Source: Corallium rubrum
Lineage: Eukaryota; Cnidaria; Anthozoa; Scleralcyonacea; Coralliidae
Reading direction: 5' to 3'
Assembly (NCBI GenBank): GCA_964035015.1
Contig: OZ035998.1
Location: 32,592,628-32,656,627, forward strand
DNA length: 64,000 nt
Both the position numbers and the translations under genes were made by a program. Positions 3,125 to 60,590 of the stretch are shown here, piece by piece (position 1 is the first letter of the stretch; each line of letters starts with the position of its first letter). The notes under the pieces were generated by a model that saw only the letters and a program-made list of their open reading frames with translations, did not search any database and was not told the origin of the DNA.

Positions 3125-3785
3125 ACTGGCGTTTCGTCAAGTTATAGCGTTTTGCTCCTTCCATGTATGATACTGTTCTCTTGAAAAATGATGTTTTCCA
3201 AGTTTTCCTTTTAGTTCTCCTTCTTCTTGGCGTACTTCGCGTCCTTAAAAGATTCGATATGGTTTCGCTAGCGTTCTTCGAATGTGTTTCACTTTGATGT
3301 CATACTAAGGTAATGTTTTGTGTTGTTGTTGTCAGTTGTCGTTATGTTGGCTTGGTATACGATGTTGTCCGTTTGGCATTTTCCTTGGAGTGGACATGTG
3401 TCTTCCTTTCGGCAGTTGCAGGGGTTATTAACGAGAGGTTTTTTCTTAGACAAGACCCGCAGTATTGCGGTTAAAAATCTTGTGTAGATTGCGGGGAATC
3501 CGCGTTTGTTGTTATAAGGAGTGTTGTACCAGATTACGTTTCGTTGTCTCTTGGTCGTTGTGATGTGGGCGATTGGGTTAGCGTTTCAGGAATGTATAGT
3601 TTAGTTTGGCGTTAAAATGGCTTTGTTTCAAGGCGTCTTCGTACAACGGTGATGCGTTTTCAAATGATTCTTGGTCGGATGATAGCAGTGATATTCATTT
3701 GTTGATTGGTTGTGGAAGTTGCTTTAAGATGGATGGTGGTTGGTTGGAGTGGCTGCTGATAAACTGTGGGTGGTCGTTTGGTCGT
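3125..3785 (-). pseudogene. Penelope-like element remnant (RT C-terminus to GIY-YIG)
   Basis: Read on the minus strand, the sequence gives the C-terminal region of a Penelope-like retroelement in order: PPSILKQLP (about 3742-3712), VIWYNTPYN (about 3538-3512), a Cys-rich linker CNCRKEDTCPLQGKC (about 3421-3377), then the GIY-side strand IVYQANITTT and a degraded RYRNHTKYFKDA block. Stops and frameshifts interrupt it. Penelope-like elements pair a telomerase-related reverse transcriptase with a GIY-YIG endonuclease; this linker is a known signature of the group. The remnant lies back to back with the plus-strand fragment that follows. Confidence 0.75.
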
Positions 3786-3816
3786 AAACCAAAAGTTTAT
3801 AGCAAGCCAACATAAC

Positions 3817-3817
3817 G

Positions 3818-3870
<53 letters not shown>
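3817..3870. repeat. (AAC)n microsatellite
   Basis: About 18 trinucleotide units inside the Penelope fragment. Confidence 0.95.
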
Positions 3871-3871
<1 letters not shown>

Positions 3872-3892
3872 TTACATTGGTAACAGACATCA

Positions 3893-3899
<7 letters not shown>

Positions 3900-3951
<52 letters not shown>

Positions 3952-3953
3952 CG
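3900..3953. repeat. (CAA)n microsatellite
   Basis: About 17 units, second tract inside the same Penelope fragment. Confidence 0.95.
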
Positions 3954-4236
3954 ACGACAACACATCAAAGAACGCTACCGAAACCATACGAAATATTTTA
4001 AGGACGCGAGGTACGCCAACGGTACAGAACTATCGAAACATGTCTGGGATCTGAAAACTAAAGGGAAAACTTTCACAATTAATTGGTCAATTCTCAAAAG
4101 AACAATATCATACACGGAAGGAACAAAACGCTGTAACTTATGTCTCGAAGAAAAGCTTGCCATTTTGAACAGAAGTAGCTTTTGGTTTCTGAGCGTACGG
4201 CGTACGTTCTAAGATAAAGTAAAGGTGTTCTTGAGG

Positions 4237-7057: not shown

Positions 7058-7790
<733 letters not shown>

Positions 7791-7882: not shown

Positions 7883-8194
<312 letters not shown>

Positions 8195-8849
8195 TCGAAC
8201 CTAGTTGGCGACGCTGACCCTTTACATCGCATCACATCGCGAAAAAATGTTAATCTACACGATCTTGTCCAGTCAGTATGACTACCAAGGACTCTGCCAT
8301 TTGATTGCCTTGATGAAATTGCACACCTGCAACCAAGGCTTCTGATGGCATCTCCAATCCAATACTTTATAACTCCCAGGTATTTGACGTAAGCGTGTTA
8401 ATGCTTTATTAAATAGCACCTGGACACTAGTCACTATCCCGAGCTTTATCGTGAAAATGATCTGAATAATTAACGTTGTATGTAGAACGCGGGCGCGGCG
8501 TTAGGATTACTTGTGGGACTAAAAATTATTCATTTTCTTTGCTATTGTGTGAGAAAAATGTGCCAAACGAAATAATCTGCCGTTAGCCAGAGTAAACATT
8601 AAGGACTCGTCGTCAGGCTTCAACGTGTTAAAGACGTAATTGTCCTTGATGTTTGCTTTGTATTTGCTATGCGCCCTAATGCGCATTGTGTACAATGGCC
8701 ATAAAAGAATACACTCTTTGAAATTTCAGTCAGTTACTTTGCCCAATGGATTGATTGCCAACTTTTTCCGTCCAATAGGTAGGTAGATTTGAATTTTGAA
8801 TACTGTAGTGTATGTTGATCCTGTTCCACGCGAACCCGTTATTTTTAAA
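8195..8849. other. Intergenic, nothing recognised
   Basis: No coding frame or repeat that I can support. Confidence 0.5.
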
Positions 8850-19470: not shown

Positions 19471-19591
19471 ATATTCAATAATGGCCGCCGAATTAGAATT
19501 ATTTTAGTATGCATAGGAATTATCCCTTATGAACTCCTTTTCATGTGGGAAATTCAAAAGAATGCTTACTTGAAAACGAGGTTATAAGGGC

Positions 19592-19655
<64 letters not shown>

Positions 19656-19692
19656 CCAAAAGAATTCTAACTCGGCGGCCATTTTTGAATAA
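19471..19692. mobile_element. Inverted-repeat element around (TA)n
   Basis: AATGGCCGCCGAATTAGAATT (about 19480-19500) and its inverted partner AATTCTAACTCGGCGGCCAT (19662-19681) enclose sequence with (TA)n at 19596-19651. Confidence 0.7.
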
Positions 19693-24148: not shown

Positions 24149-24167
24149 AACGAGCACGTGTGATTTT

Positions 24168-24352
24168 GTTCTCGGAATGTCGGCAAGTGCTCAATACCAT
24201 AACGGTAGAGCGAATATAGTATAGTTTAAATGGGCTTACCTCAAAATGTTCAGTGTCGCAACTGTCAGTTTCACCGCGCGGGGCGATCTTCAGGTCTGAA
24301 GATCGCCCCGTGTGAAACTGACAGTTGCGACAGTCAACGTTTTGAGGTAAGC

Positions 24353-24411
<59 letters not shown>

Positions 24412-24570
24412 AAGTGGGCTTACCTCAAATCTTGATGGTCGCTACGTATACTGTCAGTTTCACGCTGGGTGATCTTGACAGTAAACTGACAGTAGCGACC
24501 ATCAAGTTTTGAGGTAAGCCCACTTATTGTACTTTTGCTCTATCTTTACGGTATTGAGCACTTTTCGACA
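24168..24570. repeat. Paired TA-linked hairpin cassettes C and D
   Basis: The block is roughly mirror-symmetric. On the left: GTGCTCAATACCATAACGG, TAGAGCGAATATAGT, then GGGCTTACCTCAAAA and a hairpin (about 24231-24355). In the middle: (TA)n at 24356-24406. On the right: a second hairpin (about 24415-24520) opening with GTGGGCTTACCTCAAA, then TTTTGCTCTATCTTTACGG and TATTGAGCAC. The two hairpins share GTCAGTTTCAC but differ elsewhere. Confidence 0.85.
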
Positions 24571-24594
24571 TTTCGCGAACAACACTTTGTTTGT

Positions 24595-24597
<3 letters not shown>

Positions 24598-24662
<65 letters not shown>

Positions 24663-24735
24663 CACCTCGCATTTTCAACGGTTGCTTTCAAATCAACAGT
24701 TGAAAGTGCGAGGTGTCTCAGTAAGCCCGATTTTT
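24598..24735. repeat. (TA)n and hairpin cassette E
   Basis: (TA)n (about 24598-24658) is followed by an inverted repeat 24659-24719 (GAGACACCTCGCA...), then AGTAAGCCCG. It keeps only part of the conserved GAGGTAAGCCC base of the other cassettes. Confidence 0.7.
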
Positions 24736-24815: not shown

Positions 24816-25835
24816 TCACTCAACGTTCTTTTTATTTCCAATTTCCTCCAGTTGGTTCTCTTCCCGTACCACTACTTGACGATTGACTTTCAGAGTTCCA
24901 ACCCTATTCTTTCGCCTGGGCAGAGTAAAGCGATACTCCCTTGTCAAGATCAAAACAAGGATCGGATTAATGGCAGACGAGGAATAATAGCATATACCGA
25001 TGAACGAGAACGTAACCAGGTAACGGGTAGCATCGATGACTTCGTAGATGGTGCATAGCGTGAAGATAGCAAGAGGAACGAATGATATCCAGGATACGGT
25101 TATCAACAGGCATAGCAAGATCGAGAGATTTCGACTTTTCCTGCTCGTTCTCTCTTCTTCGCTGCTGCTGACATTCAACGTGTTCTTGAGCTTTCTGATT
25201 ATGGTGCTGTAAGAGACTGTCGCAACGACCATGGGTAAGAGCAGCATGGCACTGGTAAACGTGAGGTGGACCCTTTGTATCGTGCGGTTGGTATAAACAG
25301 GCTCGCATGTCCCCAATTTCGGAAATATCTTAAAAATGAAGCCAAATGGCAGGGATATCAGGAGATAGCTGTTCAACCAGATTACTGCAACCATCATCAA
25401 ACAACTGCGCTTCGAGATTGATACATGCGGGTATTTGACGATCTGTTTTACTCTCACCAAGGCCAAGATCGCGATAGACTGCATGGTCGCGCAATGGAAG
25501 GTTTCCCGAATGGGTATTACAAATGCGCAGGTGAACTGACTGATATTCAGGCCGGTAGTGTACTCGACAATGTTGATCGGAAGTGAGAACAAGACCACGC
25601 CCAAGTCAGCCATGGCTAGGCTGAGCACGAAGTAGTTGCTCGAGTGTTTGAGCTGGTTTAGTTTCCTCGCGCCGTTGCACAGTATTGTAAGATTTGCCAG
25701 AGTACCGACGACAATAATGAAGCAGTAGGGCACATATTCGATCTTTCTGAAATTTTCTTTTACCTCGAGAACTAAGTTCAACCAACCCGAGTCTGTCCCA
25801 TTCGGTGCTGTAAGGTTTGTTGTGTTATTGGCCAT
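24816..25835 (-). CDS. Rhodopsin-like (class A) G protein-coupled receptor, intronless
   Basis: Predicted 339-residue seven-helix receptor that would signal from the plasma membrane through G proteins; ligand unknown. I start at the ATG whose A is 25835 (context AAACATGGCC, a good Kozak match) instead of the in-frame ATG 24 codons upstream. The short N-terminus has sequons at N3, N4, N7 and N12. Landmarks: GTLANL in helix 1 (N48), LAMAD in helix 2 (D77), the conserved disulfide pair C103 and C177, W153 in helix 4, P201 and Y209 in helix 5, P254 in helix 6, NP at 290-291 in helix 7. Three microswitches are altered: DRY reads VRV (R128 kept), CWxP reads SFVP, and NPxxY reads NPILV. A basic cytoplasmic tail follows. 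Single-exon, lineage-expanded class A receptors are common in cnidarians. I cannot name a subfamily. TA-linked hairpins lie 80-650 bp past the stop. Confidence 0.93.
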   Translation of the reverse strand: MANNTTNLTAPNGTDSGWLNLVLEVKENFRKIEYVPYCFIIVVGTLANLTILCNGARKLNQLKHSSNYFVLSLAMADLGVVLFSLPINIVEYTTGLNISQFTCAFVIPIRETFHCATMQSIAILALVRVKQIVKYPHVSISKRSCLMMVAVIWLNSYLLISLPFGFIFKIFPKLGTCEPVYTNRTIQRVHLTFTSAMLLLPMVVATVSYSTIIRKLKNTLNVSSSEEERTSRKSRNLSILLCLLITVSWISFVPLAIFTLCTIYEVIDATRYLVTFSFIGICYYSSSAINPILVLILTREYRFTLPRRKNRVGTLKVNRQVVVREENQLEEIGNKKNVE

Positions 25836-26147
25836 GTTTCTGTTCTTCTTGATAAGGTTGACCCTTGAAGAAGACAAATATATATGTGAATACTTAACAA
25901 TGCACAATTGGAATGTCTTTATTTACACCGCTTGCCCCGGTTTGTTGAGACAACCCTACAGCAGTTTGTTTACACGTTTATAACAATTAAGTTGAGTTGT
26001 AATCAACAAGCCTATCGCACGTTGTTCGGACAACTTGTTGTAACCAATATTTACCCATGCATCCTCAAGCTTGAGACGCATGTTGTACTTAGTCTCTCCC
26101 GTGCTTCGAGGGTTTTCCCCTGCGTAAAATCAGTGTAGTCGTAGGTC
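25836..26147. other. Upstream of GPCR gene, nothing recognised
   Basis: Contains the possible alternative upstream ATG (25907). Near 26095-26125 is a CTTCGAGGGTTTTCCCCTGC stretch resembling the tail of the 5S-derived SINE piece at 45.9 kb. No TATA box chosen. Confidence 0.45.

Positions 26148-33682: not shown

Positions 33683-33748
<66 letters not shown>
33066..33748. other. AT-rich spacer with two (TA)n tracts
   Basis: (TA)n at about 33214-33282 and 33686-33748. Nothing else recognised. Confidence 0.6.
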
Positions 33749-33750
<2 letters not shown>

Positions 33751-33916
33751 TCTTAAATGTATATATTCTACACTCGAATTTTCCTTCACCATAAATCCTT
33801 AGAACATGCTATGTAATCGAGTGAAATGCCCAATATCATTTATAATATACCTAATTCTCTCCTGGCATTACCACCTTATTATATATACAGAACTCGCGAT
33901 CAAGCTCTCGGCAACG

Positions 33917-33988
33917 GCCTCCGTGGCTCAGTGGTCAGAGCATTGCACTAGAATCGCAAGGTCGTGGGTTCAATTCCTGCCGGAGGGC
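33917..33988 (+). tRNA. tRNA-like sequence (SINE head or tRNA pseudogene), unit 1
   Basis: A 72-nt cloverleaf can be drawn: acceptor GCCTCCG with CGGAGGG (first pair G-G mismatched), D arm GCTC/GAGC, anticodon stem TTGCA/CGCAA (last pair mismatched) with loop CTAGAAT, T arm GTGGG/CCTGC with loop TTCAATT. A-box TGGCTCAGTGG and B-box GGTTCAATTCC are intact, so RNA polymerase III transcription is plausible. The loop position gives AGA (serine), but the long variable arm of serine tRNAs is absent, so I do not call it a functional tRNA-Ser. Confidence 0.45.
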
Positions 33989-34192
33989 CTGTGTAGTTGC
34001 ATTTTTCGCAACTGCTCCCGGTTTGGTCTTAAATGTATATATTCTACACTCGAATTTTCCTTCACCATAAATCCTTAGAACATGCTATGTAATCGAGTGA
34101 AATGCCCAATATCATTTATAATATACCTAATTCTCTCCTGGCATTACCACCTTATTATATATACAGAACTCGCGATCAAGCTCTCGGCAACG

Positions 34193-34264
34193 GCCTCCGT
34201 GGCTCAGTGGTCAGAGCATTGCACTAGAATCGCAAGGTCGTGGGTTCAATTCCTGCCGGAGGGC
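34193..34264 (+). tRNA. tRNA-like sequence, unit 2
   Basis: Same sequence as the unit 1 copy, 276 bp downstream. Confidence 0.45.
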
Positions 34265-34468
34265 CTGTGTAGTTGCATTTTTCGCAACTGCTCCCGGTTT
34301 GGTCTTAAATGTATATATTCTACACTCGAATTTTCCTCCACCATAAATCCTTAGAACATGCTATGTAATCGAGTGAAATGCCCAATATCATTTATAATAT
34401 ACCTAATTCTCTCCTGGCATTACCACCTTATTATATATACAGAACTCGCGATCAAGCTCTCGGCAACG

Positions 34469-34540
34469 GCCTCCGTGGCTCAGTGGTCAGAGCATTGCAC
34501 TAGAATCGCAAGGTCGTGGGTTCAATTCCTGCCGGAGGGC
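34469..34540 (+). tRNA. tRNA-like sequence, unit 3
   Basis: Same sequence as the unit 1 copy, 552 bp downstream. Confidence 0.45.
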
Positions 34541-34686
34541 CTGTGTAGTTGCATTTTTCGCAACTGCTCCCGGTTTGGTCTTAAATGTATATATTCTACA
34601 CTCGAATTTTCCTTCACCATAAATCCTTAGAACATGCTATGTAATCGAGTGAAATGCCCAATATCATTTATATATATATATATATG

Positions 34687-35654
34687 TAATGTTTACAACA
34701 CGAGCGACCGTGTTTTATTGAATATACAATCACGAGCCGAAGGCGAGTGATTGTATATTCAATACAACAAGGACGCGAGTGTTGTAAACAACTTGTGAAA
34801 TGAATAAATCGTAAAAATCCCTTTGGGATATTGAGATGCTAATTGCTAATTAGTTACAAGCACTAGTGGTTGTATTCGAAGAGTATACATCCACCAGTGG
34901 TTGTAACTAATTAGCATCATTGGTTTTAGTTTGTATGGGGTTTACAGGGGTATACATGTGACGTATTTCTGAAATTGGATTGGCTGCAAAACTCATGAAT
35001 TAGTAATGAATTTCACAAATATATATACAGTGTATATCAAAAAGCCCTGAACCCTTAGAAAACAACCTATTGTAGTAGTTTGAAAGCCCAAAGCACTTCG
35101 CTGAACCCACAGATGCGTAAAATACACGGTCTTATACACCTGGGAAATTAAGATAACTTGTAACTCAAAGTGTATGCATAGTGAAAGTATTTAAAAGCTT
35201 TTTCTCTTCCTGTTAAACTTATGTGCTGATTAATTTATAACGCAGCGCTTTTAGGGCTTTCAAACTACTACAATAGGTTGTTTTCTAAGGGTTAAGTTTT
35301 TTTGATACACACTGTATGTATATATATATATATTTGTGAAATTCATTACTAATTCATGAGTTTTGCAGCCAATCCAATTTCAGAAATTACGTCACATGTT
35401 ACCCCTGTAAACCCCATACAAACTAAACCCAATGATGCTAATTAGTTACAACCACTAGTGGATGTATACTCTTCTGATACAACCACTAGTGCTTGTAACT
35501 AATTAGCATCCCAATATCCCAAAGGAATTTTTACTATTCATTCATTTCACAAGTTGTTTACAACACTCGCGTCCTTGTTGTATTGAATATACAATCACTC
35601 GCCTTCGGCTCGTGATTGTATATTCAATACAACACGGCCGCTCGTGTTGTAAAC

Positions 35655-35658
<4 letters not shown>
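34687..35658. mobile_element. ~970-bp element with ~340-bp inverted arms
   Basis: The left arm (34687-35036) and right arm (35317-35658) are inverted with high identity. Each arm contains its own palindrome (CAACACGAGCG / CGCGAGTGTTG and GATTGTATATTCAATAC) and the block AACTAATTAGCATC. Between the arms sits a separate mariner-like MITE. Single-arm copies occur at 36333-36595 and 51940-52112. Confidence 0.88.
35036..35316. mobile_element. Mariner-like MITE with TA target
   Basis: Element 35038-35314 begins CAGTGTATATCAAAAA and ends TTTTTTTGATACACACTG, flanked by TA on both sides. Inner TIR sequence ACCCTTAGAAAACAACCTAT is shared by both ends. TA duplication and CAGTG termini fit Tc1/mariner. 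It lies between the two arms of the larger inverted repeat; a decayed copy is at 2446-2625. Confidence 0.85.
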
Positions 35659-50639: not shown

Positions 50640-51480
50640 GACTCCTAAGCCATTCCTGCCCTAATAACGCCAGAGGATTTTATCATCAAAGGGGGAACCC
50701 TCAGACATCCTAGGTAACAATGCCGATTAACAAGCGATTGACACATTCCTGCCCTGAACTGGACAATAATGTTCCGTTCATTGTTTTACTCAAACGCACG
50801 ACGATTTTACTCATCAAAGGAAAAACCCTCAGACATCCTAGGCAACAATGCCGATTAACAAGCGATTGACACATTCCTGCCCTGAACTGGACATTAATGT
50901 TCCGTTCATTGTTTTACTCAAACGCATGACGATTTTACTCATCAAAGGGAAAACCCTCAGACATGGGACATCCTAGGTAACAATGCCGATTAACAAGCGA
51001 TTGACACATTCCTGCCCTGAACTGGACATTAATGTTCCGTTCATTGTTTTACTCAAACGCACGACGATTTTACTCATCAAAGGAAAAACCCTCAGACATC
51101 CTAGGTAACAATGGATTAACAAGCGATTGACACATTCCTGCCCTGAACTGGACAATAATGTTCCGTTCATTGTTTTACTCAAACGCACGACGATTTTACT
51201 CATCAAAGGAAAAACCCTCAGACATCCTAGGCAACAATGCCGATTAACAAGCGATTGACACATTCCTGCCCTGAACTGGACATTAATGTTCCGTTCATTG
51301 TTTTACTCAAACGCATGACGATTTTACTCATCAAAGGGGGAACCCTCAGACATCCTAGGTAACAATGGATTAACAAGCGATTAACACATTCCTGTCTGAG
51401 CCAGACAAAAATGCCCCTTTGTTGTTTTATACTTCGCCTAGCGCCAGGCGATATTACTCGCCACGTCAAAGACAATGGGT
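50640..51480. repeat. 128-bp minisatellite, six units
   Basis: CCTCAGACATCCTAGG marks unit starts at 50699, 50827, 50955, 51089, 51216 and 51344 (one unit has CATGGGA inserted). Diagnostic variants (GGCAACAATG, GACATTAATG, CGCATGACG) recur with a period of three units. Since 128 is not a multiple of three, the long minus-strand frames across it are not protein-coding. Confidence 0.92.
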
Positions 51481-51649
51481 TAAAGACCCCAGTGTCGTTT
51501 AATTTCTTGGACTATATGCACTTTTGTTATACCAAAAGAAACACATCGCTACGCTTCCAAAATTGAAATGGAAACCTGTTAACCAGGCTTTAGTTTGTTC
51601 ATAGTCAATAGAAAATATACATGATTTGGAAACCCGGCAAACTTCAAAG

Positions 51650-52463
<814 letters not shown>

Positions 52464-52465
52464 CG

Positions 52466-58770: not shown

Positions 58771-60590
58771 ATTAACAGTTATACCATGAGCTCGAGTTGT
58801 ATATGAGCTCATAGCCAACGAGGCGCTTCGCCGAGTTGGCTATTAGTTCGTATACAACGAGAGCGAATGGTATAACTGTTTTATTATATAGCCAAGCACT
58901 GTACTAGAGGCAAAATTACAGCGAAATGTTAATTTGAAGCAACAAACTTCCGGCATAGGCAACTAATACTTCCGCCATGCGTAATGATACATTCACATAG
59001 AGTTTCTCGCTGAGCTGTTCGGTAAACAGCTTCGAAATGTTGTATAAATGTTGCTCGAGAGGCAAAAAATGTGTTAAACAGATCAACAAAAAAGATTAAA
59101 AGGTACCTTTATGAAGTCAAAAGGTGGGTCAGTTGTTTATATTAGCATTTCTGTCGTGAAAAAGGTTTTGATTTCATGCAAAAGTGAAACTGAAACACCT
59201 TCGGCAGTGAAACTAAAATTACTTAGTTGGTTGTTTTTGAAAAAGAACATGCTTTTTACTGCTCCAAATGCTTATCTAAATCAAAAGTCTCTTTAGTGGT
59301 GATCTCCTACGAAATGTGTATTGTAAGCTTGATTTTAACCGCGAGTTTCTTTGTTTAGCAACAAATTAATATCAACCCGTTAATTTAGTCGGGTTTTTGA
59401 AGTAAAAAGACGTAATTTTTAGGTGAATTTTACAATTTAACATGCTAAATTGTGTATTTGTTAATGTATTATTACACAATGTTGTTTTTGCATACATTGG
59501 TTTGAGGGTGTTGATGTTTTTCTGTATAAAAATCCGTCAATTTCAACTCTTTTCGGCAGTTTAAAAAAACATGCCGCCATCTTGTTTTTCCTCTACTAGT
59601 AGGATATGAGCTGATAGCCTGGTAGTAGGGAACCAATCAGATTACGCAAAAGCTCATATCCGATAGCATGCTATATAATAATTAACAGTTATACCATGAG
59701 CTCGAGTTGTATATGAGCTCATAGCCAACGAGGCGCTTCGCCGAGTTGGCTATTAGTTCGTATACAACGAGAGCGAATGGTATAACTGTTTTATTATATA
59801 GCCAAGCACTGTACTAGAGGCAAAATTACAGCGAAATGTTAATTTGAAGCAACAAACTTCCGGCATAGGCAACTAATACTTCCGCCATGCGTAATGATAC
59901 ATTCACATAGAGTTTCTCGCTGAGCTGTTCGGTAAACAGCTTCGAAATGTTGTATAAATGTTGCTCGAGAGGCAAAAAATGTGTTAAACAGATCAACAAA
60001 AAAGATTAAAAGGTACCTTTATGAAGTCAAAAGGTGGGTCAGTTGTTTATATTAGCATTTCTGTCGTGAAAAAGGTTTTGATTTCATGCAAAAATGAAAC
60101 TGAAACACCTTCGGCAGTGAAACTAAAATTACTTAGTTGGTTGTTTTTGAAAAAGAACATGCTTTTTACTGCTCCAAATGCTTATCTAAATCAAAAGTCT
60201 CTTTAGTGGTGATCTCCTACGAAATGTGTATTGTAAGCTTGATTTTAACCGCGAGTTTCTTTGTTTAGCAACAAATTAATATCAACCCGTTAATTTAGTC
60301 GGGTTTTTGAAGTAAAAAGACGTAATTTTTAGGTGAATTTTACAATTTAACATGCTAAATTGTGTATTTGTTAATGTATTATTACACAATGTTGTTTTTG
60401 CATACATTGGTTTGAGGGTGTTGATGTTTTTCTGTATAAAAATCCGTCAATTTCAACTCTTTTCGGCAGTTTAAAAAAACATGCCGCCATCTTGTTTTTC
60501 CTCTACTAGTAGGATATGAGCTGATAGCCTGGTAGTAGGGAACCAATCAGATTACGCAAAAGCTCATATCCGATAGCATGCTATATAATA
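58771..60590. repeat. Two 910-bp tandem copies of a transposon-like unit
   Basis: 58771-59680 and 59681-60590 are almost identical; I noticed one difference (G at 59184, A at 60094). Each unit opens with a ~100-bp stem-loop (ACAGTTATACCATGAGCTCG ... TGGTATAACTGT) enclosing GCCAACGAGGCGCTTCGCC, and closes with GCTATATAATA, inverse to TTATATAGCC inside the first stem. The 61-codon frames in each copy are not recognisable. Confidence 0.93.

Follow-up and report, generated by a model that had tools for sequence, protein, structure and literature searches.

The window, by which we mean the whole stretch of 64,000 nucleotides of Corallium rubrum DNA that was analysed, contains hairpins, (TA)n tracts, a common outer module and a common base, all present at the places where the original prediction had put them. 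Four of the units (E1, E2L, E2R and E3) are related and follow a common plan of an outer module, a base of 12-13 nt and a long stem. We assign them to two Penelope-like (PLE) families, PLE-1 and PLE-2, and call the outer module the tail, which by analogy corresponds to the known tail of PLEs. The features are as follows, in window coordinates.

3217 to 4200, minus strand at 3217-3784 and plus strand at 3964-4200: degenerate remnants of PLE-like coding sequence in head-to-head orientation (tblastn E 1.6e-31 and 9.6e-26)
7339 to 7708, plus strand: degenerate PLE-like endonuclease remnant (tblastn E 1.7e-30), about 180 bp from the (TA)n of E1
7891 to 8031, no strand: (TA)70 tract on the arm side of E1
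8032 to 8177, minus strand: E1, a PLE-1 unit, with tail at 8105-8177, base at 8092-8104 and a full arm; tip at 8047/8048, second arm reduced to about 15-18 nt, then (TA)n
8177 to 8195: second, short TA tract past the tail of E1
24160 to 24352, plus strand: E2L, a PLE-2 unit, with tail to about 24233 (outer limit provisional), base at 24234-24246 and hairpin at 24234-24352
24355 to 24407, no strand: (TA)26 tract separating E2L and E2R
24418 to 24598, minus strand: E2R, a second PLE-2 unit, inverted relative to E2L, with hairpin at 24418-24519 and tail at 24520-24598
24599 to 24658, no strand: (TA)30 tract past the tail of E2R
24658 to 24720, no strand: E4, a hairpin adjoining (TA)n, not counted as a member of the families
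52113 to 52274, plus strand: E3, a PLE-1 unit, with tail at 52113-52169, base at 52170-52182 and hairpin at 52170-52274
52277 to 52315, no strand: (TA)19 tract at the tail-less end of E3

Five hairpins were folded and compared with shuffled sequences; E2L, E2R, E4 and E3 lie 11.6 to 20 SD below the shuffles, and the truncated E1 lies at -4.6. In a set of 23 window hairpins compiled by hand, 8 abut (TA)n, compared with a mean of 0.24 under random placement, and at least 8 were reached in 0 of 10,000 trials. The 13-mer GCTTACCTCAAAA has 11 matches in the window when up to 2 mismatches are allowed, compared with a shuffle mean of 2.09 and a maximum of 6 (100 shuffles). The word TTGAGGTAAG points outward on both strands because of the palindrome itself.

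The original prediction had described TA-linked hairpins, most of them with a common outer module and base. This stands for the four related units, although in E1 most of the second arm is gone and the base is present in a single copy; E4, the fifth hairpin, was not counted as a family member, having neither outer module nor base and a 21-mer that occurs once in the genome (exact matches). The stems beyond the base had been described as differing; they are not unrelated, as E1 and E3 align with E2L and E2R throughout, at 53-63% identity beyond the base. Judged from these alignments, E1/E3 and E2L/E2R are two diverged families.

Other features of the window were recorded alongside the hairpins. 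A rhodopsin-type receptor at 24816-25922 marks the window as animal sequence. A 128-bp inverted repeat (51649-51776 and 52337-52464, 124/128 identical) encloses (TA)n, part of an A-type element and E3, so that the E3 region consists of insertions stacked at the centre of another palindrome. An A-type element at 34686-35656 has palindromic ends and (TA)n bounds. Of the 114 loci L044-L157, 10 contain relatives, so that unrelated elements seem to accumulate in TA tracts, as in the SaTar arrays of plants. Three tRNA-Ser(AGA) genes lie in a 276-bp tandem repeat at 33748-34678 with (TA)n tracts at its bounds, a (TA)n tract at 19472-19691 is flanked by a short inverted repeat (34 nt, 91%), and two identical palindromes, 58774-58880 and 59684-59790, stand 910 bp apart inside a duplicated stretch.

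A dispersed repeat with short and long forms

The search of the genome for the base near its inverted copy, which had been suggested with the original prediction, was run and returned a dispersed family. In the source genome (474 Mb, 312 contigs) there are 2,507 exact copies of GCTTACCTCAAAA, compared with 10 for the reversed control, and 367 short hairpins with 70-100 nt between 12-nt bases (each on both strands), compared with 0 for the control. The hairpins are genuine and form part of a repeat that is scattered through the genome. A literal search of the published literature for the 13-mer GCTTACCTCAAAA found none, and a scan of viral and GTDB collections for the hairpin yielded 0 matches. 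The tail word was present in 3 and 32 stretches of such collections; in none of these 35 was GCTTACC present in the next 80 nt downstream, nor (TA)6 at a distance of up to 300 nt.

Counts of pairs, arms, tips and ends reported here come from the first 16 Mb of contig C1 plus the window. Sixty stretches were fetched, covering the listed GCTTACCTCAAAA places on contig C1 below 16 Mb, and together with three window loci they contain 47 inverted pairs and 25 unpaired arms, that is, arms without a partner in the fetched stretch. Both E1 (94-96% identity to the terminal repeats of locus L053) and E3 (96-97% identity to L053) belong to PLE-1. Compared with the PLE-2 loci L138 and L139, E2L is 90-92% identical and E2R 81-88%.

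At 8 PLE-1 loci the same arms enclose a body of 0.8-4.3 kb, with the stems running on inward. Frames are listed for three of these loci: L044 contains endonuclease-like and RT-like pieces, L047 contains an endonuclease-like frame on the minus strand followed by RT-like and endonuclease-like frames on the plus strand, and L050 contains two near-complete copies, head to head. In L053 a stop-free open frame of 752 codons, or 725 when counted from the first Met, lies between direct terminal repeats 2,398 bp apart. A protein search of the genome scored 78 copies among 4,544 candidates, 96-100% alike, some of them in tandem at steps of about 2,396 bp (C9, C116) and others head to head (C5, C12). The PLE-2 loci L139 and L141 have the same type of protein beside E2-type tail arms, and no PLE-like frame of at least 100 aa was found in the PLE-2 pairs L138 (5.2 kb between arms) and L140 (0.6 kb).

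Read by eye, the L053 frame contains FISFDIVDFYPSIS and YRDD as well as VYKA..YIGMT..FKER..NH and CNLCLEEK, which we take to belong to putative RT and GIY-YIG domains; the endonuclease remnant at 7339-7708 reads IYKA...QYIGMTANNFKQRFNNH. These motifs suggest that the product of the L053 frame combines a reverse transcriptase and a GIY-YIG endonuclease. The whole frame had no match in Pfam up to E 10, and pieces of it had stray sub-cut-off matches such as Pox_D5 (E 0.03). Searches of PDB sequences and of phage proteins gave nothing credible for the protein (best phage match E 3), and NCBIfam gave one stray match (E 4e-4, 19 bits against a cut-off of 490). Two comparisons lend the endonuclease reading weak support. 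The GIY-YIG core of the L141 piece has a match in an endonuclease family of PHROGs (E 0.013), and the same region of L053 has none. In a profile comparison against YhbQ, UvrC, I-TevI and SegG, YIG..F..R..H falls in register with a score of 17.6 (E 0.028, probability 1.7%), a score that one of 20 shuffles comes close to, at 16.9.

Two (AAC)n tracts in the window, 3814-3962 and 7137-7291, adjoin PLE-like coding remnants, the first of them sitting between the pieces at 3217-4200. Rotifer PLE frames are reported to contain N-rich, simple-repeat inserts (PMC3846280).

Tails, end clusters and joins

Tail classes were assigned to the 47 pairs, of which 4 remained unclassed. A tail at just one of the two ends is present in 39 of the 43 pairs that were classified, compared with 21.5 under random pairing (binomial P 1.6e-8), a count that, like the junction and (each once) diagnostic-base counts below, includes L067 and L059/L060, so that the events are not all independent. 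The remaining classified pairs comprise 2 with two tails and 2 without a tail, one of which (L063) keeps part of it. This stricter tail pattern supersedes a looser one, which also matched TA repeats and gave 36 one-tail pairs, 10 two-tail pairs and 1 unclear pair among the 47. For PLE-2, one tail was seen in 5 of 8 pairs, the other 3 being unclassed.

With L053 as the ruler, 103 arms were followed from the base outward, and 76 of them enter (TA)n, 44 at positions 12-24, 31 at positions 77-87 and 1 at position 39. Ends in the inner cluster are most frequent at positions 15 (17 arms), 18 (11) and 24 (6), and 24 of the 31 ends in the outer cluster fall at position 87. The 27 arms that do not end in TA include 9 that break at position 12, where the listed loci show PLE-2-type letters, and 3 in which internal tandem repeats follow; in the others, either small differences interrupt the match or TA is missing. 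The ruler contains TATAT words at positions 19, 34, 82 and 96. The word at 82 directly precedes the ends of the outer cluster, and the word at 34 precedes the single end at 39. Ends of the inner cluster coincide with the word at 19 or come slightly before it, most of them by 1-7 nt. There are no ends at the word at 96, and only 2 of the 4 words mark clusters. The constant base sits at the second, internal one of two putative RT start points.

Clean joins between the two arms were obtained for 16 of 30 tailed hairpins. In these, the tailed arm is longer in 7, the tail-less arm is longer in 7 and the two are equal in 2, and the joins show overlaps of up to 8 nt or extra bases of up to 7. Arms that are unequal in either direction, with overlaps or extra bases at the join, are as expected if two separate copies were joined.

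Self-priming, in which one cDNA folds back, is copied and so gives a hairpin, has been proposed on an antisense template for rotifer PLEs (PMC3846280), and it explains both the matching arms and the head-to-head palindromes. However, a tailed cDNA copied to its end by self-priming should give tails on both sides, which is what we see in only the two two-tailed pairs of the 43, and the tail-less arms begin in a narrow cluster at the second site and run straight into (TA)n. As the arms are also unequal in both directions, we regard self-priming as an improbable source of these hairpins.

All five tails folded from true references contain the same small stem-loop, which reads GCUC-UAAC/GUUA-GAGC in PLE-1, GCUC-UACC/GGUA-GAGC in E2L and GCUC-UAUC/GGUA-GAGC in E2R, so that one pair varies as A-U, C-G or U-G. 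Compared with shuffles, folding of the whole tails is better in L053 (z -2.4) and E1 (z -2.1), barely so in E3 (-1.0), and no better in E2L (-0.4) and E2R (0.3). The stem-loop may be a putative landing site of the protein.

Arm agreement and copy-specific tips

Beyond the base, arm identity within a hairpin is 100% in E3 (52/52), 91% in E2L and 86% in E2R, compared with 72-81% between E2L and E2R and the 53-63% given above between hairpins of different families. The statement that both arms change together proved correct, as the informative columns of arm quartets group by hairpin at 13:0, 7:0 and 2:0, and a value of 13 was reached in 0 of 20,000 runs with simulated independent arms. PLE-1 stems also carry a diagnostic base that is A or T in about equal numbers. 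At this base the two arms agree in every one of 29 true pairs, of which 22 are short and 7 long, with A in 14 pairs and T in 15; the chance for independent draws is about 2e-9. This count covers the 29 of the 47 pairs with exact flanking letters; L056, the one mixed case among 30, was left out, because a base at position 21 had been matched to an arm that belongs to a different hairpin at a distance of 495 bp. Independent RNAs drawn from a mixed pool would agree at the diagnostic base half the time.

Template switching between arms during replication is known to homogenise inverted repeats (PMC8794818, PMC8604942), and it could keep the palindromes perfect after insertion and would also make arms group by hairpin. 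In three other palindrome families of the window, however, columns group by side (5-6:0, 2:0 and 10:0), i.e., they keep fixed arm differences, a contrast that is fair only in direction given that these control palindromes are less diverged and 2 of the 3 families include identical copies. Some PLE hairpins, L055 and L081, likewise show changes in one arm, and template switching is superfluous if the arms were alike at birth. Plausible from the window alone as the cause of matching arms, it is unneeded given the copy-specific tips and the common diagnostic base, and we consider it very unlikely.

Tips differ in 33 of 34 hairpin rows, two of which are filled by L067, both of whose ends are tailed; L059 and L060, 5.8 kb apart, have one tip in common. 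Because the tips differ in this way, a finished hairpin does not normally serve as the unit that is copied. The tip is where two truncated copies meet. With the diagnostic base agreeing and the tips differing, both arms are therefore best explained as the product of one event, from one RNA or source locus. The original prediction had held that such covariation needs either a copying mechanism or selection on structure; copying, as two copies made in one insertion event, is retained, and selection is not needed. Its picture of a constant base with freely variable stems holds in part: the loci covered show two stem families, each fairly constant, and it is the tip that differs from one copy to another.

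TA flanks, a foldback form and stacked arrays joined by TA would also be expected of a DNA transposon of the MITE type that targets (TA)n. Plant elements of this sort have been described, namely SaTar and MuTAnT, which derive from MULEs, and Micron and TAFT (PMC5907723, PMC4486113, PMC8449440). Such elements have TIRs around a fixed interior, which cut-and-paste movement keeps, and here the tips are specific to each copy, the ends are asymmetric with a one-sided tail, and the long copies contain a PLE-type protein. We therefore reject a TA-targeting MITE or MULE and find this reading extremely unlikely. Helentron or HINE elements, which have 12-15 bp subterminal inverted repeats and a small 3' palindrome, were also rejected, the units being without subterminal repeats. 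A search within each unit for inverted matches to the 5' module found none above 8 nt in E1, none of at least 7 nt in E2L and E3, and one of 12 nt in E2R, which is the stem base. Finally, the long stems and low folding energy might suggest a structured RNA gene or microRNA precursor selected for pairing, but with only 4 tRNAs found in the window by Rfam at curated cut-offs, copy-specific tips and 367 short genome copies, the hairpins are almost certainly nothing of the kind.

Proposed origin and comparison with known elements

The repeat family with its long and short forms, the copy-specific tips, the diagnostic bases, the two end clusters and the one-tail rule are direct observations, and the hairpins are very probably 5'-truncated head-to-head double insertions of the two related PLE families in (TA)n. 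We infer the enzymatic steps of insertion as follows. The GIY-YIG endonuclease of the element would cut both strands inside (TA)n, and each 3' end would then prime reverse transcription on the element RNA. One of them would start at the far end of the tail, and its partner would start at the constant base, some 65-70 nt inward. Both copies would end prematurely and be joined head to head through a few shared or extra bases, and the product would be a palindrome that sits in (TA)n and has a tail on one side only. Stops within about 60 nt on both sides would leave just a hairpin, and longer extension would place a coding body between the arms. A more specific and tentative version, which seems to us a reasonable possibility, is a coordinated reaction at a single cut (TA)n tract. 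Each of its ends would have a fixed start site of its own on element RNA from one source, and would be guided to it by a UAUAU word that pairs with the TA target. Two ends of one cut, each with its own start site, would give one tail per hairpin, as seen.

The architecture reported for PLEs includes tandem units with terminal repeats (PMC11167929) and inverted copies of which one is tailed (PMC3846280). Tandem or partial-tandem pLTR units around an ORF are present here, in the L053 repeats and the tandem steps of the protein copies, as are inverted pLTR copies with one tail (39/43) and an AT-rich target (76/103 arms into (TA)n). Short target-site duplications, also a PLE feature, would be hidden inside (TA)n. 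The Poseidon element PAc of Anolis is described as alike in its tandem pLTR-ORF units, in two RT start sites that bound a tail, and in an AT-rich target of which both strands are cleaved and extended (PMC11167929). The same account reports the PAc start sites as not homologous to the cut DNA, whereas here both clusters lie at or within 7 nt of TATAT words that match (TA)n, and it gives the PLE tail as 30-40 bp, whereas here the clusters are about 65-70 nt apart. Rotifer Penelope families likewise are reported to have inverted terminal repeats with one tailed, head-to-head palindromic junctions and AT-rich targets, but at very low copy number (PMC3846280), whereas the minimal hairpin here occurs in hundreds of copies.

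Our search for a hammerhead ribozyme in 7 loci found none among 33 matches to E 1, a search in which a diverged motif could be missed; all matches were below the cut-off, two of the alignments being long palindromes and several others falling on TA tracts. A hammerhead ribozyme in the pLTR is frequent in PLEs and does not define them. The lack of a match in these 7 loci may be a further difference from PAc as described for Anolis (PMC11167929).

For corals, a PLE remnant has been reported from Acropora genomes, apparently without a description of end structure or hairpins (PMC9506716), and searches of open-licence papers turned up no coral hairpins of this form attributed to PLEs. The Acropora CMITE is described as a TTAA-flanked, piggyBac-type MITE (PMC2872659), and no relation to the hairpins was seen. 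A 128-bp tandem array at 50676-51394 of the window (5.6 copies) has six places that match the CMITE core, over 38-40 of 60 bases at 80-84%; tandem arrays of CMITE have been reported (PMC2872659).

The element most likely belongs to a known kind, and any novelty may lie in the one-tail rule and in the TA words found at each of the two start sites. The hairpins argue for two-ended target priming and against self-priming, with the mechanism of integration still unproven, and they provide hundreds of single-event products in one genome in which both junctions and the join are preserved. If the coordinated reaction is true, the one-tail hairpins are a fossil record of single integration events, many of which failed after less than 60 nt on both sides. 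They also carry a warning, in that TA-linked coral hairpins called MITEs or candidate small-RNA genes may be PLE scars.
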